Shown: piece by piece, positions 1,407 to 37,981 of the stretch
Position numbering within the stretch: position 1 is the stretch's first letter
Layout: the number at the start of each line of letters is the position of its first letter
Source: Flammeovirga sp. SJP92
Lineage (GTDB): Bacteria; Bacteroidota; Bacteroidia; Cytophagales; Flammeovirgaceae
DNA: 64,000 bases
NCBI RefSeq assembly: GCF_001583495.1
Contig: NZ_LQAQ01000046.1
Location: 1 to 64,000, forward strand
Direction of reading: 5' to 3'
Made by a program: the position numbers and the translations under genes
The notes under the pieces: generated by a model
Told to the model about the DNA's origin: nothing
Database searches by the model: none
What the model saw: only the letters and a program-made list of their open reading frames with translations

Positions 1407-1472
1407 TTGTCGTTTTATGCAAATAAAACTCCTTTTTATGTCTTTATAGCATATTTAGTTAAAATAAATTTG
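1407..1472 (+). promoter_or_regulatory. AraC-type operator and promoter of the arylsulfatase
   Basis: Two 15-bp direct repeats at 1407-1421 (ttgtcgttttatgca) and 1428-1442 (actcctttttatgtc) start 21 bp apart. A TAAATTTG box (1465-1472), matching the Bacteroidota -7 consensus TAnnTTTG, begins 37 bp after the second repeat starts. The same 21/37 spacing recurs at nine other sites. The repeats lack the TGAnCT start seen at most others, in line with the divergent AraC encoded next door. Confidence 0.65.
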
Positions 1473-1561
1473 TGATTGAAATGATCAGGTAGAGGATTTC
1501 TAATACAAATAGATACGAAAAGAGAAATACTTTATCACCCATAATAGAAAAATTATCAATC

Positions 1562-3937
1562 ATGAAAAGTTTAAAATTACTAATAGGTTTACTTCTTGCA
1601 AGCTGTTCTGTGTTTGGACAAGAATCCACCTCAGAAATGAATGCCATCCCTTATCCATTAGAGAAGTGGAAAGGTGTGCAAGGGAAAACATTAAAAGAGT
1701 CAAAACCTGCATTTATAAGTTCTAAAAAAGCACCAAAAGATGCTCCCAATGTTTTGGTGATTATGCTCGATGACACAGGCTACTCTAGTGCTACATCATT
1801 TGGAGGTTCAATGAATACGCCAGCATTTGATCGTATTGGTGAAGAAGGTTTACGTTATACACACATGTCTGTCAATGCTATTTGCTCACCAACCAGAGGT
1901 TCTTTGCTGACAGGTTATAATATGCATCAAATAGGTACTGGCGTGATCAATGAGGCGGCAACAGGTTACCCAGGTTACAATTCGCAAATTGATTATACGA
2001 CACCATCCGTAGCCAAAATCCTAAAAGACAATGGATATGCTACTGCCGCATTTGGTAAATGGCATAATACCAAGTTGGAAGAAGCTTCTCCTGCAGGCCC
2101 TTTTGAAGGATGGCCAACAGGTATTTGGGGGTTTGATTTCTTTTATGGTTTTATGGGAGGAGAGACCAATCAGTTTTACCCATTGCTCTATCAAGGTACT
2201 ACACCAATCGACACACCTACTCAAAATGCGGACGGTTCTACCTATCACTTATCAGCAGATATGGCGGATCAAACCATAAAATGGCTAGATAACTGGAAAG
2301 GTTTAAGAGATGATCCTTTCTTTATATATTATGCTCCAGGTGCTGTACATGCGCCAATTCATGTTCCTGCAGATTGGAGAGGTAAATACAAAGGGCGTTA
2401 TGATGAAGGTTACGAAGCATTACGTTTGGAACAATTTGCTAAGCAAAAAGAAATTGGATTAGTGCCTCAAGATGCAGAGTTGGTAGATTGGCCAAGTTCT
2501 ATTCCAGCATGGGATTCATTTAGTGAAGAAGGCAAGAAATATTTACGCCGTCAAATGGAGGTAAATGCAGCGTTTCTTGAATACACAGACTTCCATATCG
2601 GGCGTGTAATTACTCACCTTGAAGAAATGGGAGAATTGGACAATACCTTTGTCATGTACTTGACCGCAGACAATGGCTGTAGCTCAGAAGGTACTCCAAC
2701 AGGATCTTGTTCTGAACTTTTAACCGTAAATGGTTTCCCTGAGTTTACCATGAAAGAGCAGTTGGATATGTTAGAAAAGTTAGGAGGATTAGAAGAATGG
2801 GGAGGTCCTAATATGGCAAACCATTATGCTGTAGGTTGGTCGTATGCTTCATCAACTCCTTTCCAGTGGACCAAACAAATGGCTTCTCATTTTGGTGGTG
2901 TAATGACTTCTACAGCAATTCGTTACCCGAAAGAAATTGAAGCAAGAGGAGAGTGGAGACGTCAATTCCAAAACGTAACGGATATTGTACCAACTATTTT
3001 GGATGTAACCGGCGTACCTGCTCCAGATTATGTAAATGGTCAAAAAAGAATAGACTATCCTGGTGTTTCTATGCGCTACGCTTGGGACGATGCTGAAGCA
3101 AAAACAAATCATACCACGCAATATTTTGAAACAGTTGGGTTCATTGGTATTTATCATGAAGGATGGAGTTTGGCGGCGAAGCCTTACCGTGTTCCTTGGA
3201 TGTTCGATGCACAAGCCTTGGCAAATATGGATCCTCTGGCTACTGAATGGGAGTTATATAACATCGACGAAGACCCTATTCAATCCAAAAATATCGCAGA
3301 CCAGCATCCTGAGAAAGTAAAAGAGTTAGAAAAATTATTCTGGGTAGAAGCCGAAAAATATAATGTTTTCCCAGTTGGAGGTGGATTGGGTACTTTGCTT
3401 CAACCTGAATCAAGTGCGGCAAAAGGAGCGAAGAAATATTGGGAGTTCACAACCAATACGTATAGAGTTCCTGAAATGGCTGGACCGGAATTGAAAACAA
3501 ATGATTTTGAGGTAAATGCTTTCATCACAGCAGACGAAACAACGGAAGGTATCATTTATGCTTTAGGTGAACACATGGGTGGACAATCTCTTTATATTTT
3601 GGATGGAAAGTTAATGTTTACCTACCAAACTTTAGGTTACTTTACCTATGAATCAGAAGGAGTTGAGATTCCCCATGGTGAGTTGAAAATTACTTTGAAA
3701 CATACCGTCAAGGAACGTAAAATTACCGGTGCATCTGAAGTTGAATTATTAATCAATGACAAATTGGTGGAGACAGTACAAATCGGTCATACTGTAAGTT
3801 TAATGTATGGAGGACACGAAACATTTGATATTGGTCGTGACGAAGGAATGCCAGTCAGTCATCATTATGAAGACAAAGGGAAATTTAAATTCACTTCAGG
3901 ACAGTTGAAGAAAGTTACTTTTGATATAAAGAAATAA
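1562..3937 (+). CDS. Type I sulfatase (arylsulfatase), secreted
   Basis: A 791-residue sulfatase of the formylglycine class. The N-terminus is a signal peptide ending near FGQ; a LASC at residues 12-15 could alternatively be a lipobox. The metal-binding LDD is at 69-71 and the sulfatase signature CSPTR at 108-112, where C108 would be converted to formylglycine by a maturase not in this window. The long C-terminal part includes the family segment NIDEDPIQ and then a ~150-residue beta-rich region. The overall form resembles large arylsulfatases of the S1_4 type (family knowledge; the subfamily is my estimate). It is a full-length paralog of the sulfatase at 16591, with C108 at the same position. 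It is transcribed from an AraC-type promoter about 90 bp upstream. The substrate is unknown; an aryl or alkyl sulfate ester is more likely than an agar chain. Confidence 0.93.
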   Translation: MKSLKLLIGLLLASCSVFGQESTSEMNAIPYPLEKWKGVQGKTLKESKPAFISSKKAPKDAPNVLVIMLDDTGYSSATSFGGSMNTPAFDRIGEEGLRYTHMSVNAICSPTRGSLLTGYNMHQIGTGVINEAATGYPGYNSQIDYTTPSVAKILKDNGYATAAFGKWHNTKLEEASPAGPFEGWPTGIWGFDFFYGFMGGETNQFYPLLYQGTTPIDTPTQNADGSTYHLSADMADQTIKWLDNWKGLRDDPFFIYYAPGAVHAPIHVPADWRGKYKGRYDEGYEALRLEQFAKQKEIGLVPQDAELVDWPSSIPAWDSFSEEGKKYLRRQMEVNAAFLEYTDFHIGRVITHLEEMGELDNTFVMYLTADNGCSSEGTPTGSCSELLTVNGFPEFTMKEQLDMLEKLGGLEEWGGPNMANHYAVGWSYASSTPFQWTKQMASHFGGVMTSTAIRYPKEIEARGEWRRQFQNVTDIVPTILDVTGVPAPDYVNGQKRIDYPGVSMRYAWDDAEAKTNHTTQYFETVGFIGIYHEGWSLAAKPYRVPWMFDAQALANMDPLATEWELYNIDEDPIQSKNIADQHPEKVKELEKLFWVEAEKYNVFPVGGGLGTLLQPESSAAKGAKKYWEFTTNTYRVPEMAGPELKTNDFEVNAFITADETTEGIIYALGEHMGGQSLYILDGKLMFTYQTLGYFTYESEGVEIPHGELKITLKHTVKERKITGASEVELLINDKLVETVQIGHTVSLMYGGHETFDIGRDEGMPVSHHYEDKGKFKFTSGQLKKVTFDIKK

Positions 3938-3981
3938 GTTGATTTTTTTGATGATGTAATTAAATGTAAGCATCCTATATC

Positions 3982-4013
3982 AAAAAGGGGAGTTCCATTC
4001 GTTTGGAACTCCC
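3982..4013 (-). terminator. Rho-independent terminator of the agarase
   Basis: A perfect 10-bp stem (3988-3997 with 4004-4013) and a 6-nt loop lie between the convergent sulfatase and agarase genes. On the minus strand the stem is followed by TTTTT (3986-3982), so it serves the agarase; it may also slow polymerase coming from the sulfatase side. Confidence 0.85.
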
Positions 4014-4045
4014 ATAAAACAAGATGCTATTTAAATACAATTTGA

Positions 4046-5560
4046 TTAATTGATTAGAAGTTTTTGAGCTTCTCCTGCTACTTTAATGATGTAGACTCCA
4101 GGAGAAAGATGTGTAGTAGAAAGGGTATTGGCTTCCTTATTGACTATTTGACTTGAAATCACATTGCCTTGTAAAGAAACAATAACCGCTTCGAAGTCAC
4201 CTTCTGCCAATCCTGAGATTCTTACAAAATTCTTAGCAGGATTTGGTGAAAGACTGATTCTCTCATAAGCAAGATTTTCTACCACTGCGTCCGAAATTCT
4301 TGAATTACTTCCACAGTTGGCAATATAATCCCATTGTCCATCAGAACGCTTTCGGTATAAAATACCTCCATTAATTACATATTGACCTGCTGAATAGCTA
4401 TTAGAATTACCATTATAGGAAGGAGCATCCGCACAAGTCGTTCCGTTAGAACTACCACTCCCAGAAGATGATTTAGGCTTATAAACTCTCACCCAATCCA
4501 CCTTCATTTGGTTTCTAGCAGAACTAGCTAAATCTGAATCAGAAGGAGTGTGGTTAAGTGCTAACCATTGTTGTGATTCTACATTGATAATGATATCCAT
4601 TGCTTTTGTAAAACCTCTTCCACCTTGGAAATTTCCTGGATCTACTACGCTGATACCATTAGAATTATTACTTGCCGCTTGAAGCGTTGAGAAGTTATAA
4701 TTCGAGCTTGTTGCATAGGTAGTTACCGCTGTATATCCGCTAGAATTATTTGTTGGAAATTGCCCAGACATTGAGTTGAAATACTGATATTGCCAAGTAC
4801 CATCTACCTTTGTAGCAGTAGCATTGTTGTACATCACTCTTACTAATTGCCCATCAATATAATATTCAAAGTGCTCTGGACCAACCCAATAGACACCCAT
4901 TCTCATATATCTTCTGTTGCCATTATTCCAGCACCAATCACCCCATCCATAATTACCATTCACTCGGCTATCTTGATACCAACTGTTCCAGTCTTTCGGC
5001 TGATAATCGGTAAATGGCGAACGAATAAACGAGTGGTGACTGATATGTGTAAATTGTTTAAACCAAGGCACATTACCATAGTTTTCAATAATATCAATTT
5101 CCTGTGTGTCATCAGGACTTAAAAGCCAAAAACAAGAAGCCAAAGAAATATTGGCCACACTAATGGCTGACTCCACATAAACAGGATAAGTTACTCGGTT
5201 GTTAGATGTTACACACCCAGATAAAACACCCGGAATTCCCATTTTTGTAGTGTTGTTTGTCTTTGCAACAGTAATAACGAGGTTATCACCATCCACTTTC
5301 ACTCTATTGTGTTTCCAATAGGTTGTACCTGGTCCATCCCAAGCATTATGATAGAAGTTATACCATTTCCCGTTACCAAAATTAGTTTTGTAATTTACTG
5401 CGTTGAAATTGTAGTTAAAGTCATCAGAGAGATTGCCCTGAAGTTCCCATGTGTTGCCTGGTCCTGCATAAGCTGGTACAGGAATGTTGCTCCATTCTTG
5501 AGCATTAATCTCATTTCCTAAAAAGAAGAAAAATAAGATTAATAGATAATTGTTTTTCAT
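4046..5560 (-). CDS. GH16 beta-agarase, type IX secreted
   Basis: A 504-residue secreted glycoside hydrolase. Residues 1-20 form a signal peptide ending INA. The catalytic domain (about 25-360) carries the GH16 signature EIDIIE at 154-159, giving E154 as nucleophile, D156 as helper and E159 as acid/base. A Ser/Gly-rich linker (about 365-377) leads to a small aromatic, two-cysteine module (about 378-420) like CBM5/12-type carbohydrate-binding modules, and the protein ends with a type A C-terminal sorting domain (SLSPNPAKNF ... GVYIIKV ... LLIN), the export signal for the type IX secretion system. Domain order and sequence fit beta-agarases that cut agarose in endo fashion; porphyranase or kappa-carrageenase activity is less likely but not excluded. 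The gene stands alone with its own terminator. A short hairpin lies just upstream of the start codon (about 5579-5595). Confidence 0.9.
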   Translation of the reverse strand: MKNNYLLILFFFFLGNEINAQEWSNIPVPAYAGPGNTWELQGNLSDDFNYNFNAVNYKTNFGNGKWYNFYHNAWDGPGTTYWKHNRVKVDGDNLVITVAKTNNTTKMGIPGVLSGCVTSNNRVTYPVYVESAISVANISLASCFWLLSPDDTQEIDIIENYGNVPWFKQFTHISHHSFIRSPFTDYQPKDWNSWYQDSRVNGNYGWGDWCWNNGNRRYMRMGVYWVGPEHFEYYIDGQLVRVMYNNATATKVDGTWQYQYFNSMSGQFPTNNSSGYTAVTTYATSSNYNFSTLQAASNNSNGISVVDPGNFQGGRGFTKAMDIIINVESQQWLALNHTPSDSDLASSARNQMKVDWVRVYKPKSSSGSGSSNGTTCADAPSYNGNSNSYSAGQYVINGGILYRKRSDGQWDYIANCGSNSRISDAVVENLAYERISLSPNPAKNFVRISGLAEGDFEAVIVSLQGNVISSQIVNKEANTLSTTHLSPGVYIIKVAGEAQKLLIN

Positions 5561-6077
5561 TTTGAATTAGTTAATACTGCCCATTTGGTATGGGCTTGAT
5601 TTAAGTTTACATGTAGATAAATAGCATCTCATTTCAAACCCAAATACGCGGTAAAGAATTACATCCCCAACAATCAACACTAGACAAAAACTGTATATTA
5701 TTTAATAGAAATATGATAATGATATCGTTTTGATTTTTCCTCCAATATTTCAATAATGATTAGTTATTTTGGCTGTTTTCAATACTTATAGTGTTTGTTT
5801 TACATTTTATGTCAAGTTTTTAGATTGAATAATAACCTATAGACAGACCACTCTATTTTCATAAAAATGCAATGTGTTACAGAAATAAGTGATTTCTTTC
5901 AATTCAATCTTTAGAAAGTAAAAATAATGACCTCATTTTAGTGAAATATTCTCTCACCTAAATCTGTCAAGGTCATTTTAGAAGCTAATTAAAAGTAGTT
6001 TTGATACACTTATGAACTTCTTTAATGTATAGCATTTTTATATTCTCTAAGCACGATAAATTATGTAGCTTTAACCC
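5561..6077. other. 517-bp intergenic gap
   Basis: AT-rich spacer between the divergent agarase and YcaQ genes. Apart from a small hairpin near 5579-5595 (GCCCA/TGGGC), in the probable agarase leader, I see no RNA gene, open frame, or convincing TAnnTTTG box on either strand. It presumably holds both promoters. Confidence 0.5.
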
Positions 6078-7229
6078 ATGAAAAAAATTGCAATTTCCAA
6101 AGCTGAAGCAAAACAAATAATCCTTGATCGTCAGTTCAATTTCCCATTAACTAATAATGAACTGAATTCTACTTTAAAGGTCATTGAGCATTTAGGTTAC
6201 ATTCAAATAGATACAATAGCTGTCATTCAAAGAGCCCATCATCATATATTTTGGTCACGTAACACAGACTATCAGACATCACATATTGATCAACTTATTC
6301 AAAATAAATCAGTATTTGAATATTGGTCACATGCCGCTTCTTATCTTCCAATGAAAGATTTCAGGTACTCTTTACCCAAGAAAAATGCTTTAAAAGCTGG
6401 GAAAGAGAAACATTGGCACCAAAAAAATAAAACGCTAATGAATGAGGTCAAGCGACGTATTCAGACTGAAGGACCATTGATGGCTAAAGATTTTAAATCT
6501 GAAGGAGCCAATTCTTCCGCTTGGAAATCTGCACCTTATAAGCAAGCTTTAGAAATGCTATTTATGGAGGGTGATTTAATGATCTCTGAAAGAAGAAATT
6601 TTCATAAAGTCTATGATTTGACTGAAAGGGTATTGCCAAACTCTGTTGATACTTCTACTCCAACGGATACTGAATATGCAAAGTACCTTACCCGAAGGTA
6701 TTTGAACAATCAAGGCATTGCCCAATTACCTGAAATTGGTTTCTTATTGAAGAAAAATATCAAATTAATCTTACAAGAAACACTTCATAATATGGTAGAA
6801 GATGGAGAATTATCTATCATAGAAATTGAGGGGGAAAGTTATTATACATTAACTTCAACAATTGATAACCTTGGTAATCATAAGCATTCACTAAAGGTTA
6901 AGATTTTATCTCCATTTGATAATTTCTTGATTCAACGCCAAAGAATAAAAGCCCTTTTTGAGTACGACTACCTATTGGAATGCTATCTGCCACAATCCAA
7001 AAGAAAATATGGTTATTTCACCCTGCCTATATTATGGCACGACAACCTTGTGGCAAGAATAGATTGTAAGGTGGATAGAAAAAAGGGTATTTTGAATGTA
7101 ATTAGTCTTCATTTAGAAGAAAACATGAACGACCAAAATGCATTTCATATTGATTTAATGGAGGAGTTAGAAAGATTTAAAGTATTTAATGGTTGCCAAG
7201 AAATTGTATTTTTGGATAAAATTAATTGA
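6078..7229 (+). CDS. ycaQ: YcaQ-family winged-helix protein (HTH_42 DNA glycosylase)
   Basis: A 383-residue cytoplasmic protein of the HTH_42/AlkZ-like superfamily, built of tandem winged helices. Characterised relatives such as E. coli YcaQ (AlkX) remove bulky alkylated bases and unhook DNA interstrand crosslinks. The catalytic motif of the AlkX branch, QxD, is present as Q43-I44-D45 within LGYIQIDTIAVIQRAHHH; the AlkZ branch has QxQ instead. Length is normal for the family. The gene stands alone: agarase upstream is divergent, and the downstream neighbour is a REP unit and the RAYT transposase on the opposite strand. Crosslink glycosylase activity is inferred from the motif. Confidence 0.88.
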   Translation: MKKIAISKAEAKQIILDRQFNFPLTNNELNSTLKVIEHLGYIQIDTIAVIQRAHHHIFWSRNTDYQTSHIDQLIQNKSVFEYWSHAASYLPMKDFRYSLPKKNALKAGKEKHWHQKNKTLMNEVKRRIQTEGPLMAKDFKSEGANSSAWKSAPYKQALEMLFMEGDLMISERRNFHKVYDLTERVLPNSVDTSTPTDTEYAKYLTRRYLNNQGIAQLPEIGFLLKKNIKLILQETLHNMVEDGELSIIEIEGESYYTLTSTIDNLGNHKHSLKVKILSPFDNFLIQRQRIKALFEYDYLLECYLPQSKRKYGYFTLPILWHDNLVARIDCKVDRKKGILNVISLHLEENMNDQNAFHIDLMEELERFKVFNGCQEIVFLDKIN

Positions 7230-7251
7230 TAAATACCACATCACGAACCAC

Positions 7252-7479
7252 GTAGGGGTAGACCTATGTGTCTACCCACCGAACCACAACACGGACCATA
7301 TTCATTTTCATAACGAACCATCTGTCAACTGAATTACAACACGTACCAAAATTAAATCCCATAAAGAGATATCATCTTACAAAATCCAATGATTGATTAT
7401 TGTATTGTGATCAATTACCTGATGTTTTTTTGTGTTTCTGATTGTGGTACAGTGGGCAGACACATAGGTCTGCCCCTAC
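7252..7479. repeat. REP-bounded repeat unit I (BIME-like)
   Basis: Two GTAG-hairpin elements face each other. The left one has GTAG at 7252-7255 followed by stem GGGTAGAC (7256-7263), loop CTATGT, stem GTCTACCC (7270-7277). The right one is its reverse complement form, stem at 7454-7461/7468-7475 with CTAC at 7476-7479. A GTAG foot plus hairpin is the classic target of RAYT transposases. The right-hand GTAG overlaps the last codons of the RAYT gene and supplies its TAG stop. Confidence 0.9.
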
Positions 7480-8263: not shown

Positions 8264-8289
8264 GGGCGGAATACATCCAATTATCCTAT

Positions 8290-9273
8290 TTAATGACTAG
8301 GAATCACTTCATGTGGACTTAGCCCTTTGATCTTTTTAAACATAGCCGAAAACTTGGAAGGATTTTCATAACCCATATCCATACTGATTTCGGTGATAGA
8401 CTGTTTGCCTTCTTTTAGTCTTCTATAGGCTTCCTCCATTTTTTCATTGAGGTGATACTGATAGATACTCGAATTGAAGAGTGTTTTAAAATCCCTTTTC
8501 AACTTAGAAACACTAACCCCAAACTCTTTTGCAAGGTCATCAATAACTATTTTCTGATCAAAATTACCGCTAAGTACTGTCCTTATCTTTAATAGTCTCT
8601 GATAATCATCATAATGCAGTCCATTCAAGTCGTCTTTATCTAGCATCCCGATAATAGATTGGAATAACAAAGCAAAAATCTCCAATGCACGTGCTAAAAT
8701 AAGAGGATTGGAACCAATCACTTTTTCTCTAAAATGAAATACATCATCCAATAAAGGGTTCAGTTCTATTGGAAGGAAAGTATAGTATGCCAAACCTTCT
8801 GTACCAGGAAACAACTGACGGAAAACAGATTTATGATCGGGCATTAATTGTGTAAATGCATTTTTGGAAACATAATAGCCCAAGGATTGGAAGTGTGTAT
8901 TGGCCTTAAAGAGCGTTTCGATAGGGTACATGCCGTTGTAAATCAATATTCTTTTTTGACTTTCGGCATCTAGATGTTTTTGGTCTTCTTCATCAACCAA
9001 TTCATGAGAAACATCTCCGATTCTGACAATATTGATAAAAATAAGATCGGGGTCATTATCAGGTAATCTCTGTGTATGAATATCCTCCTTGTATTTGCAA
9101 TTTGAGATAAAGACATCAAACCCTTCTATCAATTTATAGAAATAGAAGTGAATAAAGGAGTCTTCATGAGAGTAAAGAAAGTGATTTCCTTCTCTAGCAT
9201 CTCTTTTTAATTCCTTTGTCAATACTTCAAATAATTGTTCAATATTCGCTTCCTGATAGACTAATTCAAGCAT
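8290..9273 (-). CDS. AraC family transcriptional regulator
   Basis: A 327-residue regulator with an uncharacterised N-terminal region and a C-terminal AraC double helix-turn-helix (about 232-325). First recognition helix: VSKLKRDFKTLF; second: NPSKFSAMFKK. It is encoded divergently from the alkylsulfatase-like operon at 9479, and the gap holds a two-repeat operator. An operator of very similar sequence lies before the esterase at 13990, so both transcription units are inferred to answer to this protein. The gene ends PSH with its own TAA stop about 27 bp before repeat unit II, unlike two paralogs whose stop codon is donated by the repeat. Confidence 0.92.
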   Translation of the reverse strand: MLELVYQEANIEQLFEVLTKELKRDAREGNHFLYSHEDSFIHFYFYKLIEGFDVFISNCKYKEDIHTQRLPDNDPDLIFINIVRIGDVSHELVDEEDQKHLDAESQKRILIYNGMYPIETLFKANTHFQSLGYYVSKNAFTQLMPDHKSVFRQLFPGTEGLAYYTFLPIELNPLLDDVFHFREKVIGSNPLILARALEIFALLFQSIIGMLDKDDLNGLHYDDYQRLLKIRTVLSGNFDQKIVIDDLAKEFGVSVSKLKRDFKTLFNSSIYQYHLNEKMEEAYRRLKEGKQSITEISMDMGYENPSKFSAMFKKIKGLSPHEVIPSH

Positions 9274-9383
9274 AAAAAAGATAATAATGTTATGAATTAC
9301 AATATAAGCATTCCATTGTCTTCTTATTGTTTATAAGATGTAATAGTCCCTTTTTCTGTAAAGATTCAAATAAAATATCCTCT

Positions 9384-9449
9384 TGAACTTTTTGGATTGT
9401 CACATGAACTTATCAGAGTAGCTGACCGGCTATTCTTGCTCTACTTTTG
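9384..9449 (+). promoter_or_regulatory. AraC-type operator and promoter of the alkylsulfatase operon
   Basis: Direct repeats tgaactttttggatt (9384-9398) and tgaacttatcagagt (9405-9419) start 21 bp apart. A TACTTTTG -7 box (9442-9449) begins 37 bp after the second repeat starts; translation begins at 9479. The repeats closely match those before the esterase at 13990. Confidence 0.75.
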
Positions 9450-9478
9450 TATTATCAAATTACAAATAGAACAAGAAA

Positions 9479-11278: not shown

Positions 11279-11294
11279 TAAATGATCTTCTCAA

Positions 11295-11327
11295 GTATGC
11301 GATGGTCGATCAAAGACTATCGCATAC
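11295..11327 (+). other. Intercistronic hairpin
   Basis: A 13-bp stem with one G-U pair (11295-11307 with 11315-11327) and a 7-nt loop sits between the alkylsulfatase-like gene and the porin gene. No T-run follows, so it is more likely to affect mRNA stability or read-through ratio than to terminate fully. Confidence 0.65.
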
Positions 11328-11423
11328 ATCTACTAAAATGTAAAGAGCCTTCGTCTACATTTATTCGGATAGCTTATTACATATAATATTCCTACAAAAT
11401 CAAAGATATAAACCAACAATAAA

Positions 11424-12827: not shown

Positions 12828-12858
12828 CAGAAAACAATTTTTAAACCAAAAATATATC

Positions 12859-13695: not shown

Positions 13696-13710
13696 TTAGT
13701 TGAATGATAG

Positions 13711-13744
13711 TGAACAGCTTTTACTTTCGAGTAAGAGTTGTTCA
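13711..13744 (+). terminator. Terminator-like hairpin after the alkylsulfatase operon
   Basis: A 15-bp stem with two wobble pairs and a TTCG tetraloop (13711-13725 with 13730-13744) lies just after the hydrolase stop codon. No strong T-run follows, so termination may need the second hairpin downstream. Confidence 0.6.
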
Positions 13745-13830
13745 GTTCATCAAAAAATAGTCAAAATAACATAGCATTTTCGTTCTACCTGTATAAAGGA
13801 TAAATTAATTTTGCAGGAATATAATATATG

Positions 13831-13887: not shown

Positions 13888-13953
13888 TGAGCGTTTTGGA
13901 TCATTGCATGAACTGATAAGAAGTAAATTATGATGCTTGGATATATAAATTTG
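13888..13953 (+). promoter_or_regulatory. AraC-type operator and promoter of the HSL esterase
   Basis: Direct repeats tgagcgttttggatc (13888-13902) and tgaactgataagaag (13909-13923) start 21 bp apart; TAAATTTG (13946-13953) begins 37 bp after the second. No AraC gene is adjacent on this side; the repeats resemble those at 9384, pointing to control by the AraC at 8290. Confidence 0.7.
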
Positions 13954-13989
13954 TAGCATCAATACAATCAAAAAAATCACAAATAGAAC

Positions 13990-15072: not shown

Positions 15073-15253
15073 GTAGGGGTAGACCTATGTGTCTACCCGC
15101 TGAACCACAATACAAACCATAATTAAATCCCAATGAAATGATCAATAACAATCCAAAAATCCGATTGTCATTGATCATTTCACATAATAATTTAACTGAT
15201 TTTTTGTGGCCCTGATTGTGGTACAGTGGGCAGACACATAGGTCTGCCCCTAT
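15073..15253. repeat. REP-bounded repeat unit III (BIME-like)
   Basis: Left element: GTAG 15073-15076, stem GGGTAGAC 15077-15084, loop CTATGT, stem GTCTACCC 15091-15098. Right element: stem 15228-15235/15242-15249 with foot CTAT (15250-15253), i.e. ATAG in place of GTAG. The left stem carries the paired C-to-T and G-to-A change also seen in unit I. The right foot provides the TAG stop of the AraC gene. Confidence 0.9.
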
Positions 15254-16227
15254 GGGATAATATCTTTAGGACTAACACCTTTGATTTTCTTAAACATTGT
15301 AGAGAATTTTGAAGGAGTTTCATACCCTAAATCAATACTTACTTCAAGCACTGAATACTTACCGCTTTTTAATCGTTTATACGCTTCTTCCATTTTAGCT
15401 TGAATTCGATACTGCGTAATATTTGTATCAAAAAGAGTTTTAAAGTCTCTTTTAAGCTTTGATGTACTCACACCAAATTCTTCCGCAATTTCATTTAAAG
15501 AAATTTTCTGATCGAAGTTGGTGACCAATTTTTGTCTTATTTGTAATAGTCTTTGGTAATCACTAGAGTGAAGTCCTTTCAACTCATCCTTATGAATTAA
15601 CGAAATGACGTATTCTATTAAAATGGCCAATACCTCTATTCCTTTAGAGAGAAGGTAAGGAGTTTTGAGCTTTTGATTAGTTTTATAAAGGAACATTTGT
15701 TCAAGGAGTGAGATCAACTCTACAGGTAAAGAGGTGTGATACCCGATGCCATCATCATTGGGAAACATTTTTTCTATCTCATGATATATTTCCGGCATGA
15801 TTCCTTTGAATACTTGTTTGGTGATTCGTACACCCACTGATTGATAGTGTTTGTCAGCAGGTACATAGGCATCAATAGGGAATAAACCATTATGGATGAT
15901 CACGTTTTTGGCAGAGTCGGATTTTAATACTTCTTGCTTTTTATTAAATAATTGAACGACTTCACCTTTGATAATCATATTGATATGTATCAGGTCAGGG
16001 TCTCCATCTGGAATTCTATCAATGTTTGCATCAACTGGATTATAATAGTCAATAAGAATCACTTCAAACCCATTCCAAAAATTGAAAAAGTCAAACTCAA
16101 TCTTAGATCTCCCTTTTTTATATCTATACTGATGTTCATTGATCAGATTACCACCAATTTTTTCTAATAATGTTTCAACTACGCTAAAGGTCATCCCTTC
16201 CTTAAAAGTGAGTTCAAACTTCTCCAT
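15250..16227 (-). CDS. AraC family transcriptional regulator
   Basis: A 325-residue AraC paralog. The C-terminal DNA-binding domain (about 230-325) has the shared first recognition helix TSKLKRDFKTLF and a second helix TPSKFSTMFKK. It diverges from the sulfatase at 16591 across a 363-bp gap with a two-repeat operator at 16329, so it is the presumed activator of that sulfatase. The protein ends KDIIP; its TAG stop (15252-15250) lies in the foot of repeat unit III, three or so residues earlier than in the longer paralogs at 8290 and 33711. Confidence 0.92.
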   Translation of the reverse strand: MEKFELTFKEGMTFSVVETLLEKIGGNLINEHQYRYKKGRSKIEFDFFNFWNGFEVILIDYYNPVDANIDRIPDGDPDLIHINMIIKGEVVQLFNKKQEVLKSDSAKNVIIHNGLFPIDAYVPADKHYQSVGVRITKQVFKGIMPEIYHEIEKMFPNDDGIGYHTSLPVELISLLEQMFLYKTNQKLKTPYLLSKGIEVLAILIEYVISLIHKDELKGLHSSDYQRLLQIRQKLVTNFDQKISLNEIAEEFGVSTSKLKRDFKTLFDTNITQYRIQAKMEEAYKRLKSGKYSVLEVSIDLGYETPSKFSTMFKKIKGVSPKDIIP

Positions 16228-16328: not shown

Positions 16329-16394
16329 TGATCTATCACGGATACTGAATGATCTGTGAGGGCATGAATTCCATTTTTTCACCCACTACTTTTG
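16329..16394 (+). promoter_or_regulatory. AraC-type operator and promoter of the second sulfatase
   Basis: Direct repeats tgatctatcacggat (16329-16343) and tgatctgtgagggca (16350-16364) start 21 bp apart; TACTTTTG (16387-16394) begins 37 bp after the second. The start codon is at 16591, so the leader is unusually long, about 190 nt, and includes a small hairpin near 16534-16551. Confidence 0.75.
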
Positions 16395-16590
16395 TATCAT
16401 AAAGTTTACAAATTGATAGTCGAATAATTACCCTCTATTAATTCTCATATCATTACAAAATTTATGTAGAATCTATACTAAGATACATTAGTTGTGGTAG
16501 GATTGGTACATCATGACATCAATTCAACAAAGATGAAAGCTCATCTTTCAACCAAAAAATATTTCTAAAAATTAACCTACAATCAGAAGA

Positions 16591-18993: not shown

Positions 18994-19188
18994 GTAGGGG
19001 CAGACCTATGTGTCTGCCCACCGAACCACAATACAAATTATTGAAGTATTGTGGTTCTTGTTTTATCTATATGACCACAAAACCATATTTGTCATCGATA
19101 AAAAACAATGTTGATGATTATTTTATAGATACAGATTTTTGTGTTTCTGTTTGTGGTACAGCGGGCAGACACATAGGTCTGCCCCTAC
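18994..19188. repeat. REP-bounded repeat unit IV (BIME-like)
   Basis: Left element: GTAG 18994-18997, stem GGGCAGAC 18998-19005, stem GTCTGCCC 19012-19019. Right element: stem 19163-19170/19177-19184, CTAC 19185-19188. The interior contains another hairpin, about 11 bp, ACCACAATAC pairing with GTATTGTGGT (about 19024-19055), also found in unit VI. The right foot supplies the stop codon of the AraC gene at 19185. Confidence 0.9.
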
Positions 19189-20171
19189 GGGATGATGTTT
19201 TTAGGGCTAACTCCTTTTATTTTTTTAAACATGGATGAAAAATTAGGAATACTGGTATAACCTAAATCGTAGCCAACTTCCATTACAGAGTATTTACCGG
19301 ATTTTAATCTGCGATAGGCTTCGTCCATTTTAGCATGTGTATAATATTGGTATATGGATGTATCGTACAGCGTTTTAAAATCTCTTTTCAATTTCGATAT
19401 GCTAACACCAAATTCAGATGCCATGTCCTCAACTACTAATTGATCTTCCAGTTTTGATAAAATATAGCTTTTGATTTCCAACAATCGTTTATAGTCTTCT
19501 TGATGCAATCCATGAAGTTTATCGTTTTGAATAAGGGCTTTGATAGATAACATAATCTGAGTGAACAGCTCTAAGCCTTTTACCATTAGCATGGGTATAC
19601 GCTCAAACTTTGTATTTTCATAATGTAGAATATCATCAATAAGTGCTTCCATCTGAATAGGTAAACCTGTATGGTAAGCGATAGATTCATTATTAATTAA
19701 AGCATTTATCAGATCATATGAAGAATGAGGGAATAATTGGATCAATACATCTTTTGATAATTTTAATGAAATAGAATTATAGTTCGAACTTACAGGAAAG
19801 TGAGTGACTGTTGGAAACAACCCATTATAGATAAATACACTATTTATACTTCCCGCTTCCAACATCAGTAATTGGTCATTGTAATTTTGATTTACATTCC
19901 CTCTATATACAATATAGATATGAATTGTATCTGAATCGTTGTCAGGTTCACGTTCCATGATTAGAGGGTGACCAAATTTCGCTTGAGAAATAATCAACTC
20001 TAATCCTTGCATAATCTGGAGGGAAGACATTTTTAATTCGGTATGTTTCCCATGATATAAAAAAGAAGAGTCGGAATATTCACCTCCAAGTACATCATGT
20101 AAACTCTTAAAATAGTTCTTAGCATTCCCTTCTTTCAATTTGAAGGTTTTGATCTGTTCTTTCTCTTTCAT
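19185..20171 (-). CDS. AraC family transcriptional regulator
   Basis: About 328 residues from the preferred start MKEKEQIKTF at 20171; an in-frame ATG exists at 20198 but adds only nine unconserved residues. The C-terminal domain has first helix ISKLKRDFKTLY and second helix SIPNFSSMFKK, different from the paralogs. It diverges from the choloylglycine-hydrolase-like gene, whose operator repeats (20241) are likewise different in their second half. It ends KNIIP with a TAG stop (19187-19185) lying in the GTAG foot of repeat unit IV, as in the paralog at 15250. Shared ancestry of this junction with the one at 15250 is possible. Confidence 0.92.
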   Translation of the reverse strand: MKEKEQIKTFKLKEGNAKNYFKSLHDVLGGEYSDSSFLYHGKHTELKMSSLQIMQGLELIISQAKFGHPLIMEREPDNDSDTIHIYIVYRGNVNQNYNDQLLMLEAGSINSVFIYNGLFPTVTHFPVSSNYNSISLKLSKDVLIQLFPHSSYDLINALINNESIAYHTGLPIQMEALIDDILHYENTKFERIPMLMVKGLELFTQIMLSIKALIQNDKLHGLHQEDYKRLLEIKSYILSKLEDQLVVEDMASEFGVSISKLKRDFKTLYDTSIYQYYTHAKMDEAYRRLKSGKYSVMEVGYDLGYTSIPNFSSMFKKIKGVSPKNIIP

Positions 20172-20240
20172 CAATACAAAAGTAATGTAATGGTTCAATG
20201 TGGCAAAGTAAATCCTTTTTTGATGATTGGGAAAGAGAGT

Positions 20241-20306
20241 TGAGCTGATTCGATAATTGCTTGAACGTTGACGATACGTTGAAGCATGATCTAGTTTCTA
20301 CCTTTA
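20241..20306 (+). promoter_or_regulatory. AraC-type operator and promoter of the amidase gene
   Basis: Direct repeats tgagctgattcgata (20241-20255) and tgaacgttgacgata (20262-20276) start 21 bp apart and share the ending cgata. A TACCTTTA box (20299-20306), one base off TAnnTTTG, begins 37 bp after the second repeat. Translation starts at 20345. Confidence 0.68.
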
Positions 20307-20344
20307 CTTTATCATTCAAAGATCAACAAAAATTAAAAATTGAT

Positions 20345-21982: not shown

Positions 21983-22048
21983 ATCCCTTTTTATACAACA
22001 TCTGTACTCTTTTTTGCAAGCCTTCCCATTACCCTTCCACTACTTTTG
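21983..22048 (+). promoter_or_regulatory. Probable AraC-type operator and promoter of the small lipoprotein gene
   Basis: A TACTTTTG box at 22041-22048 lies 37 bp after a weak repeat at 22004-22018 (gtactcttttttgca), itself 21 bp after atccctttttataca (21983-21997). The repeats are degenerate but the first resembles actcctttttatgtc at 1428, so the AraC at 429 could act here. Confidence 0.5.
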
Positions 22049-22077
22049 TATCATAAAATAATCACAAATACTTATTT

Positions 22078-26376: not shown

Positions 26377-26442
26377 TGACCTTTTTGGGCAAGTGGATGA
26401 CCTTTTTTAAAAAGAAATTTTTAAAATATACTACGACTTTTG
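26377..26442 (+). promoter_or_regulatory. AraC-type operator and promoter of the outer-membrane protein gene
   Basis: Direct repeats tgacctttttgggca (26377-26391) and tgaccttttttaaaa (26398-26412) start 21 bp apart; GACTTTTG (26435-26442) begins 37 bp after the second. They resemble the repeats at 27461 and 34815, so a common regulator (AraC at 33711) is plausible. Confidence 0.68.
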
Positions 26443-26571
26443 TAGTACAATTTGGAGTCGAGAATAAGCCTTGACAGCTTAGTGTTTTGATCCAAGCTAA
26501 ATCAATTAAATTATGAGGGTGAGGGCCTTAGTTTTCTAAGGTCTTCATTTCATAAAACTAAAAACCTAATT

Positions 26572-27460: not shown

Positions 27461-27526
27461 TGACCCTATTGGGAGTTGAGCTGATCTTTTCGGGAGAGAA
27501 AAAGGTAAGGTAACCATCGACATTTG
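27461..27526 (+). promoter_or_regulatory. AraC-type operator and promoter of the xus-like operon
   Basis: Direct repeats tgaccctattgggag (27461-27475) and tgatcttttcgggag (27482-27496) start 21 bp apart; GACATTTG (27519-27526) begins 37 bp after the second. Very similar to the operator of the DUF3604 gene at 34815. Confidence 0.7.
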
Positions 27527-27646
27527 TATTGTAATTAAAAACTACTGTTGTTTTTAAGATCATTGCTGAACATTTATAACATAAATGAAAATAATGTAAT
27601 GCAATAAAAATACGTCGATTGAATTAAACACAAAACTATCAGCCTT

Positions 27647-33710: not shown

Positions 33711-34694
33711 TTATTTGGATGGTAAAATCTCCTTAGGATTCACCCCTTTGATTTTCTTAAACATCTGCGAAAATTTTGAAGGTGTTTCATATCCCAAATC
33801 GAGGCTTATTTCTAAAATAGAATATTCCCCACTTTTCAATCTACGCATTGCTTCTTCCATTTTTACTTGAAGATGATATTGATAAACTGAAGTATTGAAA
33901 AGGGTTTTAAAATCCCTTTTAAGCTTAGAAACACTCATGCCAAATTCCTGAGCGAGGTCATTCAAGACAATTTTTTCACTGAGTTGATTGACCAGTTTTT
34001 TTCTAATTTCCAACAAACGTTGATAATCACTGATATGTAATCCATTCAAATCATCTTCCTTATTTAAGTAAATGACAGAGTCGAAAAGTTTACTTAGTAT
34101 TTCTATTCCTTTAGCAAGTATTAAAGGTGTTGGCTTAGTAGCCGATTCTTTGATGATGAACATTTCATCCATCAAAATAATAAGTTCAGCAGGAAGGGGA
34201 GTATGATAGGCTATACCTGTATCTTCGGGAAAAAGTTGGTTTATTTCTTCCAAATACTCAGGCATAATTTCATTAATTACTTTTTTAGAAACACGAAATC
34301 CAACAGTTTGAATTTTTGTATTGGCAGGAGCAAAATTATTGATCTCAAATAATCCATTGTGCATCAATACTCTTTTATTACTATCAGCTTTTAAAAACTC
34401 TTCTTTGTCATCAAAGAAATGATTGATTTCTCCATTTTTAATCAGATTAATATGCAATAACTCGGGATCTTCATCAGTGGTCCTAGAAGTAGTAAAGTGG
34501 AGGTCTGACAGAAAGTCAATTAATAGAATCTCAAACTTTTCCCAATACATATAAATATCAAGTTCAATTTTTGATTTGCCTTTATTATATCTGTATTGAT
34601 GATTATCGAGGAACTCCCCACCAAATTCTTGAAGTAGATTGTCTACTAAGTTAATGGTCATGCCTTCTTTAAAGTTGAGATTAAATGTATCCAT
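33711..34694 (-). CDS. AraC family transcriptional regulator
   Basis: A 327-residue AraC paralog with first recognition helix VSKLKRDFKTLF and second helix TPSKFSQMFKK (C-terminal domain about 230-325). It diverges from the DUF3604 gene at 34971 with a two-repeat operator between them. Operators of similar sequence stand before the barrel protein (26377) and the xus-like receptor (27461), so it may control all three. Ends KEILPSK, with a normal stop. Confidence 0.92.
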   Translation of the reverse strand: MDTFNLNFKEGMTINLVDNLLQEFGGEFLDNHQYRYNKGKSKIELDIYMYWEKFEILLIDFLSDLHFTTSRTTDEDPELLHINLIKNGEINHFFDDKEEFLKADSNKRVLMHNGLFEINNFAPANTKIQTVGFRVSKKVINEIMPEYLEEINQLFPEDTGIAYHTPLPAELIILMDEMFIIKESATKPTPLILAKGIEILSKLFDSVIYLNKEDDLNGLHISDYQRLLEIRKKLVNQLSEKIVLNDLAQEFGMSVSKLKRDFKTLFNTSVYQYHLQVKMEEAMRRLKSGEYSILEISLDLGYETPSKFSQMFKKIKGVNPKEILPSK

Positions 34695-34814
34695 ATTACT
34701 TATTATTTTGAATAATCTAATTTAGGCAATTACGATAGATTGTTCCTTAATAATGGAGACTATTTTTAGAACAAAAGTTAAACTATTTATGTAGCCTGAT
34801 CCATTAAAATAACA

Positions 34815-34880
34815 TGATCTTTTTGGGAGTTACACTGGTCTTTTTGGAAGAGAATTAGGGGTGTGCAGCTACTACATTTG
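34815..34880 (+). promoter_or_regulatory. AraC-type operator and promoter of the DUF3604 gene
   Basis: Direct repeats tgatctttttgggag (34815-34829) and tggtctttttggaag (34836-34850), 13 of 15 bases alike, start 21 bp apart; TACATTTG (34873-34880) begins 37 bp after the second. The clearest example of the shared geometry. Confidence 0.8.
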
Positions 34881-34970
34881 TAATATCAACATTGATAAAA
34901 AGAGATAAACGAAAATTTATTTATCATTTATAAATCGTGTTGAAAACTAATTATCAAAAACAAATAGATT

Positions 34971-36839
34971 ATGAAAAAATTATTGACACTTGTACTAGCT
35001 GCAGGTACGTTCTTGTCTAGTACAGCTCAAGAAGTACAGCAAGAGAAAGTTAAAGAATACTCTCCGTATATTGGTGATTTTGATCCAGGTCCACTTCCTG
35101 AAAATTATGATAAACCACTTTTTGGTGACACTCACTTCCATACATTTTGGTCGACAGATGCTGGTTTCTTAGGTATCGAGCCAGGTCCAGACATTGCATA
35201 CCGTGCGGCAAGAGGTGAAGAAGTGACAGCTCAGTCAGGATTTAAATTTAAATTAATTCGTCCATTAGACTTCGTTTTACTTTCTGATCATGCAGAAAAC
35301 TTAGGTCTTTCAGATTTTATCCGTAACGAAGATCCACTTTTACAGAAAAGTGAAGCGGGTAAGCGTTGGTTAGAAATGTTTAAAAATGGTGAAGGTTACA
35401 ATGCTTATTTAGAATGGGCACGTAATATCAATACCGATCAAATTAATGTACCAGAAATGGTAGAGACTATTTGGGGACGTGTGGTTGATAATGCTGAAAA
35501 ATACTATGAGCCAGGTAAATTTACTACATTCATTGGTTATGAATTTACGTCAGCACCAAACTCAAATAACTTACACAGAAATTTAATTTTTAGAGACGGT
35601 GCAGAGGAAGCATTGCAATACTTCCCTTATTCTGCTTTTGATTCTGGAAATCCAGAAGATATGTGGAAATTCTTAGCGGAGTATGAAGAAACAACTGGAG
35701 GTCGTGTTTTGGCTATTCCTCACAACCCGAACTTTTCAAACGGATTAATGTTTGATGATAAGACTTACGAAGGTCATGAGTTAACGAAAGAATGGGTAGA
35801 AACAAGAAGCCGTTTTGAAACGATTGTAGAAGTTTCACAGATGAAAGGTGATTCTGAAGCTCACCCTAATATTTCACCTGATGATCAGTTTGCTGATTTC
35901 GTGACGATGTCTCGTGGTAACATGATGGGTTCAGTTGAAAAAACGGATGACATGCTTTACAAAGAATATGCACGTTATGCTTACTTAGAAGGCCTTAAAA
36001 TCGAACGTAAAATTGGTGTGAACCCTTACAAATTTGGTATGATTGGTTCAACTGATGCCCACGGTGGTATCTCTTCTCAAAGAAATGAGAACTACTTTGG
36101 TAAAGGTGCTTTTATGGAGCCAAGTCCAGGACGTGGCGACGGTATTATGGTAAAAGGTTATAAAGAAGAACTTTCTATTTTCCGTGGCGAAAACGGTGCA
36201 GGTGGTCTTTGTGCAGTTTGGGCAAAAGAAAACAACCGTGAGTCTATCTTCGATGCAATGGAGCGTAAAGAAGTGTATGCTACTTCTGGTACTCGTATGT
36301 CAGTTCGTGTATTCGGTGGATTTGATTTCTCTGACAACGATCTTGATAACTTAGTAGATAACGGTTACTCTAAAGGTGTACCAATGGGTGGTGATCTTGA
36401 GGCAAATGGTCAAACTCCAGGTTTCATGATCAGAGCTCAAAAAGACCCTGACGGTGCAAACTTAGACCGTGTTCAAGTGATTAAAGGTTGGATCGATGCT
36501 GATGGTAACACTTTCGAGAAAGTATTTGATGCAGCAGTATCAGATAACCGTAAGATTAATAATGCAGGTGTTTGTGAGACAAATGTTGGATCGACTATCG
36601 ATTACGATAAGGCAACTTATACTAACGATATTGGAGCTGAAGAATTAACAACTTACTGGGAAGATCCTGAGTTCGACGCTTCACAAAATGCATTCTACTA
36701 TGTAAGAGTTTTAGAAATTCCAACTCCACGTTGGACACTTTATGACAAAGTATTCTTCGGTTCTGAAGTAGGAGAGGGTATTAAATTAGAAACACAAGAG
36801 AGAGCTTATGCATCGCCAATTTGGTACAATGCAAAATAA
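34971..36839 (+). CDS. DUF3604 domain protein (PHP-like), secreted
   Basis: A 622-residue exported protein: signal peptide ending STAQ, then a DUF3604 domain filling the rest. The segment FGDTHFHT near residue 55 and the later LLSDHAE and GSTDAHGG give metal-binding histidines and aspartates as in PHP-type phosphoesterases, so a metal hydrolase is likely. The biochemical role of DUF3604 is not established. It is co-located with sulfatases and DUF1214 here; a shared pathway is inference. Codon use is restricted (GGT, CGT, AAC), hinting at high expression. Controlled by the AraC at 33711. Confidence 0.88.
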   Translation: MKKLLTLVLAAGTFLSSTAQEVQQEKVKEYSPYIGDFDPGPLPENYDKPLFGDTHFHTFWSTDAGFLGIEPGPDIAYRAARGEEVTAQSGFKFKLIRPLDFVLLSDHAENLGLSDFIRNEDPLLQKSEAGKRWLEMFKNGEGYNAYLEWARNINTDQINVPEMVETIWGRVVDNAEKYYEPGKFTTFIGYEFTSAPNSNNLHRNLIFRDGAEEALQYFPYSAFDSGNPEDMWKFLAEYEETTGGRVLAIPHNPNFSNGLMFDDKTYEGHELTKEWVETRSRFETIVEVSQMKGDSEAHPNISPDDQFADFVTMSRGNMMGSVEKTDDMLYKEYARYAYLEGLKIERKIGVNPYKFGMIGSTDAHGGISSQRNENYFGKGAFMEPSPGRGDGIMVKGYKEELSIFRGENGAGGLCAVWAKENNRESIFDAMERKEVYATSGTRMSVRVFGGFDFSDNDLDNLVDNGYSKGVPMGGDLEANGQTPGFMIRAQKDPDGANLDRVQVIKGWIDADGNTFEKVFDAAVSDNRKINNAGVCETNVGSTIDYDKATYTNDIGAEELTTYWEDPEFDASQNAFYYVRVLEIPTPRWTLYDKVFFGSEVGEGIKLETQERAYASPIWYNAK

Positions 36840-36874
36840 CTTTTCAATCATTTTTGTTTAAGTGTATACTAAGG

Positions 36875-36905
36875 CAGCAGCTGAAGAAATTCGGTTGCTG
36901 TTTTA
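36875..36905 (+). terminator. Terminator of the DUF3604 gene
   Basis: An 11-bp stem with two G-U pairs (36875-36885 with 36890-36900), 4-nt loop, then TTTTATTT. The T-run overlaps the stop codon of the convergent AraC gene. Confidence 0.8.
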
Positions 36906-37892
36906 TTTCATTATAGTTACATCCGTAGGGCTTATTCCCTTCACTTTTTTAAACATCCTAGAAAAAGTAGCCAAGTTTTTATATCCCAAATCATAGGCAA
37001 TTTCACTGACACTATATTTACCAGACTGTAACCTTCTATAGGCCTCATCCATTTTTGCATTCATAAAATATTGATAGACGGAACTATTGAATAAAATTTT
37101 GAAATCTCTTTTTAGTTTGGATACGCTTATTCCGAATTCAGTTGCTAGCTCTTCCAAAACCACTTTCTGCTCAAAATTAGAAAGCAGTTTTTCTTTAATT
37201 TCAATCAGACGATTGTAGTCTTCAATATGTAAACCATATAATTCGTCACTTCCCTTTGATGCTTGAATGGATTGGATGACAAAAGTAAAAATTTCTAACC
37301 CTTTCGCCATCACTAATGGATTTTTCCAATCCTTTAAAGTCATAGAATGGAATATTTTTTCCATCAACATTTCCACCTCATTATTCTTTTTGAGGTGATA
37401 TCTCATTGGGGTGTTGCTTGGAAAAAGCTCTTCCAACAAAGCATCGGAATGAGGGAGTAACTGTGAAAAAGTACCTCTTTTTATTTTTATACCCACAGCA
37501 CTGTATTGATGAGTAGGCAAGTGGGCTTCAATAGGGAATAGACCATTAGAAATGAAAATATCTTTAGATTCTTGAGGTCCCAATACTTCAGAATCATCTT
37601 CAAATTGATGATGGATAACACCAGATTTAAAGATTCCAATATGTAAGTGATCAGTGTTGGCTTCTAATTCTCTTTCTACAACAGTTGATTGTTTCATATA
37701 CACATCACCAATCACTAATTGAAAACCAGGGATAAATTCATACAACAGCCAATCTATTTTTCCTTTAGAGTTATCCAGGATATAATGATTTCCCTTCAAA
37801 GTTCCACCTAGGTGCTCTAAAAATGAATCAATATAATTTCTAATATCACCCTCTTTTACCTTAAAGCGTATTTCTTTTTCCTTATTATACAT
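36903..37892 (-). CDS. AraC family transcriptional regulator without an adjacent target gene
   Basis: A 329-residue AraC paralog; C-terminal domain with first helix VSKLKRDFKILF and second helix NLATFSRMFKK. Unlike its five relatives it has no divergent gene: the operator and promoter at 37916-37981 point into a gap of about 130 bp that ends in a terminator and the convergent aldo/keto reductase. Its target may have been lost, may be a short RNA, or may lie elsewhere. The protein itself appears intact. Confidence 0.92.
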   Translation of the reverse strand: MYNKEKEIRFKVKEGDIRNYIDSFLEHLGGTLKGNHYILDNSKGKIDWLLYEFIPGFQLVIGDVYMKQSTVVERELEANTDHLHIGIFKSGVIHHQFEDDSEVLGPQESKDIFISNGLFPIEAHLPTHQYSAVGIKIKRGTFSQLLPHSDALLEELFPSNTPMRYHLKKNNEVEMLMEKIFHSMTLKDWKNPLVMAKGLEIFTFVIQSIQASKGSDELYGLHIEDYNRLIEIKEKLLSNFEQKVVLEELATEFGISVSKLKRDFKILFNSSVYQYFMNAKMDEAYRRLQSGKYSVSEIAYDLGYKNLATFSRMFKKVKGISPTDVTIMK

Positions 37893-37915
37893 ATCAACCT
37901 ATTTTCTTTCAATTT

Positions 37916-37981
37916 AGAGCTTTTGTGTAAACTCTTAAAGCTTTCGTGTAAAACATTTCCCTCTCAAAACTACTACTTTTG
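37916..37981 (+). promoter_or_regulatory. Orphan AraC-type operator and promoter
   Basis: Direct repeats agagcttttgtgtaa (37916-37930) and aaagctttcgtgtaa (37937-37951) start 21 bp apart; TACTTTTG (37974-37981) begins 37 bp after the second, the same spacing as at the other sites. No gene follows on the plus strand. Confidence 0.72.

Follow-up and report, generated by a model that had tools for sequence, protein, structure and literature searches.

Introduction

The Pm promoter of plasmid pWW0, at which XylS acts, carries two 15-bp direct repeats, each composed of a box A (TGCA), 6 bp and a box B (GGTA), according to an excerpt of PMC5481539. In Bacteroides, the motifs predicted for hybrid two-component system (HTCS) regulators are direct repeats at an average distance of 21 bp, with the monomers on one face of the DNA (PMC3878776, in excerpt), and CgrA of the Zobellia carrageenan cluster is described as an AraC-family positive regulator of a sulfatase-containing catabolic cluster in a marine member of the Bacteroidota (PMC5698469, likewise in excerpt). 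Here we analyze a stretch of 64 kb from the 8.49-Mb genome (123 contigs) of the marine bacterium Flammeovirga sp. SJP92 (contig NZ_LQAQ01000046.1, positions 1 to 64,000), called the window below, in which ten predicted promoters lie beside direct repeats of the AraC operator type, and we compare these with the described systems.

At the E. coli araBAD promoter (pBAD), the AraC half-sites araI1 and araI2 are direct repeats 21 bp apart and the second starts 37 bp before the -10 hexamer TACTGT, as in the window; the known I1 and -10 sequences were looked up in the record, and in a blind scan for 21-bp repeats I1/I2 was not the top pair. However, the E. coli half-sites are 17 bp long and different in sequence, and the promoter has a sigma-70 -10 element instead of the TAnnTTTG box seen here. 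At Pm, TGCAAGAAGCGGATA and TGCAAAAAATGGCTA stand 21 bp apart, with T1 G2 and G11 G12 in the same register as in the window sites, but the -10 element, which we take to be TAGGCT, starts 36 and not 37 bp past the second half-site, and the system is one of Proteobacteria. HTCS regulators are hybrid sensor kinases, unlike the one-piece AraC proteins found here, and the excerpt of PMC3878776 gives no fixed distance to a -7 box. CgrA is similar in being an AraC-family regulator of a sulfatase-containing cluster in a marine member of the Bacteroidota, and the excerpt of PMC5698469 describes no operator geometry for it. The layout itself is already known from araBAD, XylS/Pm and the HTCS regulators; what is added here is a regulator clade, its operators, their wiring and a fixed distance to the Bacteroidota -7 box.

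AraC-type regulators are numerous in Bacteroidota, and few described operators were found for the one-piece kind. In the open-access papers searched we found nothing on these Flammeovirga regulators, nor a fixed -7 distance for Bacteroidota AraC operators; PMC12125979 was set aside because its subject, as given in the excerpt, is a Vibrio XylR-type regulator.

Results

The initial annotation of the window had listed ten pairs of 15-bp repeats 21 bp apart, each followed by a TAnnTTTG-type box that starts 37 bp after the second repeat. Both features were confirmed at all ten positions (Table 1), the box being exact at seven sites and one base off at 20241 (TACCTTTA), 26377 (GACTTTTG) and 27461 (GACATTTG), the last two of which begin with G. 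TAnnTTTG is the -7 consensus of the primary sigma factor in Bacteroidota, and the boxes mark predicted promoters. Two direct half-sites about 21 bp apart, with the proximal one occupying the place of the -35/-33 element at a fixed distance from the core promoter (37 bp in 10 of 10 cases), are marks of the class-II AraC architecture. The -33 TTG was present at only one of the ten window sites and 2 of 45 aligned sites, and 22 bp separate the end of the proximal half-site from the -7 box, which fits a promoter that depends on an activator beside the polymerase.

Six AraC-family genes lie on the minus strand of the region, each adjoining one operator site, and five of them, the clade-A2 regulators, are paralogs. 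All six products carry the C-terminal tandem helix-turn-helix (HTH; Pfam HTH_18) of the AraC/XylS family above the Pfam cut-off, and HTH_18 was matched in 38 of 38 aligned regulators at E<=1; the genome as a whole gives 106 HTH_18 matches, HTCS-sized frames included. The N-terminal part, which would respond to a ligand, was unmatched by 28 PDB sequences (E<=1), and ExsA_N was matched in 4 of the 38 members (best 1.5e-5). The HTCS architecture, in which sensor, kinase and receiver are fused to the AraC domain, was not found in these proteins of 322-337 aa, which matched only DNA-binding HTH-type or sigma-region families. The plus strand encodes two sulfatases, an alkylsulfatase-like metallo-beta-lactamase protein, alpha/beta hydrolases, a choloylglycine-hydrolase-family protein, outer-membrane proteins, a TonB-dependent receptor and a DUF3604 protein.

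At six of the ten sites an araC start codon is 10-121 bp away, and araC genes often autoregulate; on these grounds AraC might bind the sites mainly to repress or autoregulate the divergent araC, the rightward promoter being incidental. However, the four sites that have no adjoining araC still show the rightward 21/37 spacing, and the rightward -7 box is kept where the spacer has diverged. A perfect leftward -7 box occurs at only two of the six araC-adjacent sites, 20241 and 37916, and the one at 37916 is not kept in a second Flammeovirga genome (G006, see below). We consider this explanation unlikely, and activation rather than repression would be the main role of the sites.

Chance offers another account, since AT-rich intergenic DNA and a degenerate box could produce such patterns. 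When repeat identity was counted on the plus strand (>=10/15), the cell of the spacing grid with repeat offset 21 and box distance 37, written (21,37), held 4 matches when the box had to be exact, where the grid mean was 0.14, and 7 when one mismatch in the box was allowed, where it was 1.65; in the latter grid the cell (21,36) held 9, partly since the same repeats slide. Identity-only counts in window positions 1-43 kb exceeded those in a 41-kb control at stricter settings (5 vs 2 and 4 vs 1), but with a box mismatch allowed they were equal (5 vs 5), which speaks for chance, and repeat identity was dropped as the sole criterion. A leave-one-out matrix placed all ten sites at ranks 2-16 of 127,868 positions, although 1407, 21983 and 37916 scored 11.1, 8.7 and 10.4 bits, below the 13.0 bits that were the mean best of 30 first-order random sequences. 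Eleven window positions exceeded 18 bits, against a mean of 0.03 in the random sequences, with the caveat that the matrix was trained on the ten sites and that one of the 11 is a shifted match.

A model built from 28 operators of other genera placed seven of the sites at ranks 1-7 of the 127,868 positions, with 24.7-37.4 bits, and the next position reached only 7.8 bits; the three odd sites came at ranks 12 (37916), 133 (1407) and 164 (21983). The window spacing grid is the cleaner result: with the spacing left free, the external model gave 7 in the cell (21,37) on the plus strand and at most 1 in the other cells of 2,816 on either strand. For the seven sites chance is contradicted by the spacing grid, by the 18-bit count and by the recurrence of the layout across genera, and we hold it to be extremely unlikely; the other three rest on conservation in two to four genomes.

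The predicted 21/37 layout recurs beside homologous AraC genes in other orders. Of 77 loci fetched, the first 36 (L061-L096, near full-length matches) were scanned. A matrix-free scan found a 21-bp repeat (>=10/15) with a box (<=1 mismatch) at 37 upstream of the homologous AraC genes in 11 of the 36 loci (grid mean 0.84, standard deviation 1.24); the cells (21,36), (21,38) and (21,39) also held 11, tied since repeats slide. When the window matrix was used, the highest-scoring site of the whole locus was located in the divergent upstream region for 18 of the 36 loci, or 15 of 31 when five Flammeovirga loci are excluded. The 18 include Draconibacterium, Carboxylicivirga, Saccharicrinis, Maribellus and Tamlana; Flammeovirga belongs to Cytophagales, Carboxylicivirga to Marinilabiliales and Tamlana to Flavobacteriales. 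An open frame of >=60 codons starts <=320 bp downstream of 23 of 31 relatives' sites, and of the eight sites without one, L080:209 lies 208 bp from the locus end; the L071 site (4854-4920) has a downstream open frame within 320 bp. At three sites in L078 and L084 the target is the same hydrolase as at 20261 (53-74 % identity), and in Saccharicrinis (L084) regulator type, operator and target are all the same as at 20241. Other targets are alkylsulfatase, beta-lactamase-family proteins, a DUF1254/DUF1214 protein and an Omp85-type barrel.

These data also bear on whether the shared geometry merely reflects recent duplication of one promoter, i.e., copying and not function. The regulators are paralogs, as noted, and the two window sulfatases are related (64-66 % between the 16591 protein and orthologs of the 1562 protein). 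Nevertheless, the spacers differ among the ten sites when compared by eye, the half-sites vary with the regulator whereas the spacing is constant, and the spacing persists in other orders. In 46 distinct other AraC loci of the genome, moreover, the 21-bp offset leads at 5 of 5 settings. Duplication is, in our judgment, very unlikely to be the explanation.

The half-sites fall into several specificities and are not one operator. Of 38 aligned regulators, 28 with a clear cognate site were kept in a table of covariation, several rows of which are near-duplicates within Flammeovirga. The first-HTH helix (S-x-SKLKRDF) is nearly constant, as is box A. In the second HTH, 24 regulators have SK, three PN and one AT at residues that presumably lie in the base-contacting helix, by homology with MarA. 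Position 11, in box B, is G in 37 of the 48 half-sites that belong to SK regulators and in none of the 6 that belong to PN regulators, while GATA occupies positions 12-15 in 0 of 48 and 6 of 6, respectively. The view of parallel AraC-controlled modules taken in the initial annotation is upheld as to the tandem half-sites abutting -7 promoters and the six AraC genes each standing by a site, but it has to be amended in that there are several specificities and that 37916 is geneless.

We then considered nine Flammeovirga genomes (G000-G008, G000 being the one that holds the window) with a sequence-only model made from 45 sites, eight of them from the window and 1407 and 21983 excluded. Each genome yielded about 6,000-7,500 first-look candidates, of which 150 were scored, and operator counts are lower bounds. 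Among the scored candidates, the top seven matches in 8.49 Mb were window sites and 37917 ranked eleventh. The genome-wide scan proposed in the initial annotation thus gave strong matches almost only in the window, and for this reason the system looks like a local family of cassettes and not a genome-wide regulon of one protein. Of the ten operator matches of G000, seven fall within the window and two lie next to a different AraC pair on contig C44; the tenth is C93:66309, where a 21-bp pair is present but no -7 box at 37 bp. A further match, C12:26380, could not be read as a clear 21-bp pair. At the C44 locus (L194), three further 21/37 operators were seen at 72482, 74295 and 74549 beside the other AraC pair, with box B TTAAA or similar.

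Clade-A2 regulators (E<=1e-60) numbered 5, 1, 5, 0, 0, 0, 3, 0 and 0 in G000 to G008, and operator matches (E<=0.01) at least 10, then 0, 9, 0, 0, 0, 3, 1 and 0. Thus, among the nine genomes, the three with intact A2 regulators carry matching operators. The single operator match of G007 (G007:C10:88318) is of the C44 type, i.e., it belongs to another AraC type. G008 has an A2-like gene only as broken frames, the longest of 126 and 152 codons, and no A2-type operator match. The only A2 regulator of G001 at E<=1e-60 (L235, G001:C1:655941-656912) has an in-frame TAG, and G001 gave no operator match at E<=0.01. Orthologs of AraC 33711 are 95 % identical in F. aprica and 90 % in Flammeovirga sp. 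OC4.

Sites 1407, 21983 and 37916 carry half-sites unlike those of the other seven, and the case for them rests on conservation in other Flammeovirga genomes. The 1407 block, including its spacer, is kept in G006 and G008 beside AraC 429 orthologs, followed in both by the sulfatase ortholog. The 21983 half-sites are kept in G006 and G007, and in G007 both spacings are kept though the spacers have diverged. At 37916 the half-sites and the box are kept in G002 and, despite a diverged spacer, in G006; in G007 the second box A is degraded and the spacing is 36 instead of 37. In G008, three 21/37 sites (C2 positions 1301943, 1307714 and 1315829; L234) were observed beside three AraC 429-type genes; they score 16.4-17.3 bits with the window matrix, and their half-sites resemble those at 1407.

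As judged from genome alignments, the modules behave as cassettes. The peptidase (24125) and reductase (38110) genes adjoin each other in G007, which lacks the block of about 11 kb that separates them in the window. In G006, positions 8,266-19,138 are absent at this locus (a 10.9-kb difference), and on either side the alignment breaks off within copies of a palindrome resembling repetitive extragenic palindromic (REP) elements. The core of this palindrome, GTGTCTGCCC, has nine exact copies in the window against 0.05 expected, and two copies flank a Y1-type transposase gene (7476-7976). Recombination between the REP-like repeats would be a natural route for the gain and loss of whole modules, the direction and mechanism being hypothetical.

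Downstream of the 37916 promoter no frame is longer than a few codons; one of 10 aa that follows the box was discarded, being not kept in G006 and G007. Within about 100 nt of the promoter lies a terminator, which the convergent aldo/keto reductase gene shares. Four genomes, G000, G002, G006 and G007, keep the box, the first half-site and two blocks of the downstream stretch; of these, G000 and G002 are 97 % identical there. The fold z-score of the stretch is -5.45, most of which is due to the terminator hairpin. The six other matches to the stretch that were inspected were rejected as generic terminator-like hairpins, and Rfam gave no match in the window at gathering scores. The stretch may encode a small RNA or be the remnant of a lost target. 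Tentatively, and with more doubt than confidence, we suggest that AraC 36903 might drive a small RNA of about 100 nt (in four of nine genomes) as one output of REP-shuffled modules that share one exact promoter geometry across phyla.

Two details concern neighbouring genes. The listed TTG start (20261) of the choloylglycine-hydrolase-family frame falls within the predicted operator, and ATG 20345 is likely the true start. The proteins of 22078-22686 and 31496-32116 have no Pfam family, and the latter is about 32 % identical to homologs of the former. Elsewhere, window positions 60422-63355 encode a WD40-repeat protein with a caspase-family domain, and on contig C45 of the same genome a 199-aa open frame (9045-9641) matches the C-terminal part of AraC 429 with 100 % identity, which points to either a duplicate or an assembly overlap.

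Table 1. Predicted operators, regulators and other elements in the window (MBL, metallo-beta-lactamase; OMP, outer-membrane protein; matches, identical bases between the two repeat copies; rank, position with the external model)
Feature	Position	Strand	Matches of 15	Rank	Context
Operator pair 1407/1428, -7 box 1465	1407..1473	+	8	133	before sulfatase 1562-3937; divergent from AraC 429-1397; own half-site type
Operator pair and -7 box	9384..9450	+	11	3	before alkylsulfatase-like MBL gene 9479-11278; divergent from AraC 8290-9273
Operator pair and -7 box	13888..13954	+	7	5	before Abhydrolase_3 gene 13990-15060; half-sites nearest 9384 (by eye)
Operator pair and -7 box	16329..16395	+	10	6	before sulfatase 16591-18972, box-to-ATG 204 bp; divergent from AraC 15250-16227
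Operator pair and box TACCTTTA	20241..20307	+	9	7	before choloylglycine-hydrolase-family gene; divergent from AraC 19185-20198; box B GATA
Operator pair and -7 box	21983..22049	+	9	164	before 202-aa protein 22078-22686, family unassigned; cognate AraC uncertain
Operator pair and box GACTTTTG	26377..26443	+	11	4	before OMP beta-barrel gene 26572-27300
Operator pair and box GACATTTG	27461..27527	+	11	1	before TonB-dependent receptor 27647-30043; half-sites nearest 34815 (by eye)
Operator pair and -7 box	34815..34881	+	13	2	before DUF3604 gene 34971-36839; divergent from AraC 33711-34694
Operator pair and -7 box	37916..37982	+	13	12	divergent from AraC 36903-37892; without downstream gene
Candidate short geneless transcript with terminator hairpin, possible small RNA	37987..38090	+			conserved blocks in four genomes
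AraC-family regulator	429..1397	-			divergent member
AraC-family regulator	8290..9273	-			clade A2
AraC-family regulator	15250..16227	-			clade A2
AraC-family regulator	19185..20198	-			clade A2; HTH2 residues PN instead of SK
AraC-family regulator	33711..34694	-			clade A2
AraC-family regulator	36903..37892	-			clade A2; HTH2 residues AT instead of SK
REP-like palindromes	7454, 8062, 8238, 15228, 19010, 19163, 21499, 21741, 21952				several at cassette boundaries

Discussion

We consider it highly probable that the ten sites are genuine operators of class-II-type AraC activators with regulator-specific half-sites, and that the modules are gained and lost as cassettes, AraC binding and activation being what the computed geometry, conservation, regulator-operator co-occurrence and helix/box covariation lead us to infer. 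A predicted operator of the main type consists of two head-to-tail 15-bp half-sites, each with a box A (TGAnC) and a box B around GG at positions 11-12. Box A and box B are separated by roughly one helical turn, and the spacing of the half-sites is exactly 21 bp, or two turns, so that two AraC monomers would share one face of the DNA. The downstream half-site, where the -33 TTG is missing, would let the bound activator touch RNA polymerase, and transcription would start at the predicted -7 promoters.

Each of the five clade-A2 regulators and AraC 429 would recognize a half-site type of its own, with a specificity that depends mainly on the second HTH reading box B, and each would drive its divergent target, some also a second nearby promoter. 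Our putative assignments are AraC 33711 to 34815, 27461 and 26377; AraC 8290 to 9384 and 13888; AraC 15250 to 16329; AraC 19185 to 20241; AraC 36903 to 37916; and AraC 429 to 1407. The regulator of 21983 is left open because G007 keeps this operator but has no AraC 429 match reaching E 1e-30. Regulator, operator and target would be gained and lost together as one cassette.

Several points weigh against this reading. Because the window-trained matrix, with the spacing fixed, had been used to select the 28 training sites of the external model, the external-model ranks are not fully independent. The tie of the identity-only count with the control has been mentioned, as have the limited number of scored candidates per genome and the 21983 operator of G007. 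The genome model gives 37916 no better than E 0.019 and does not recover 1407 or 21983. In 18 of the 36 relatives' loci the best matrix match lies elsewhere or is absent, and at the 46 other AraC loci of the genome, 37 is the leading distance, alone or in a tie, at only 3 of 5 settings. The 37916 promoter, kept in four genomes, has no gene but only about 100 nt and a terminator. Finally, 10 of the 38 aligned regulators had no clear cognate site and were dropped from the covariation table, the sites in that table were mostly picked with the same matrix, which favours GG, so that the SK-GG link is partly selected, and the three PN regulators may be one orthologous group and hence one event. Because of this matrix bias, the near-duplicate rows and the possibly single PN lineage, the covariation between regulator helix and box B, as computed, is supportive but not decisive.

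If the 21/37 rule is true, operators would be readable from sequence, and regulators could be matched to targets that do not adjoin them. The SK, PN and AT residues of the second HTH would then be tied to bases of box B. The rule suggests that the geometry between activator and polymerase known from E. coli is preserved on promoters with a different core sequence.

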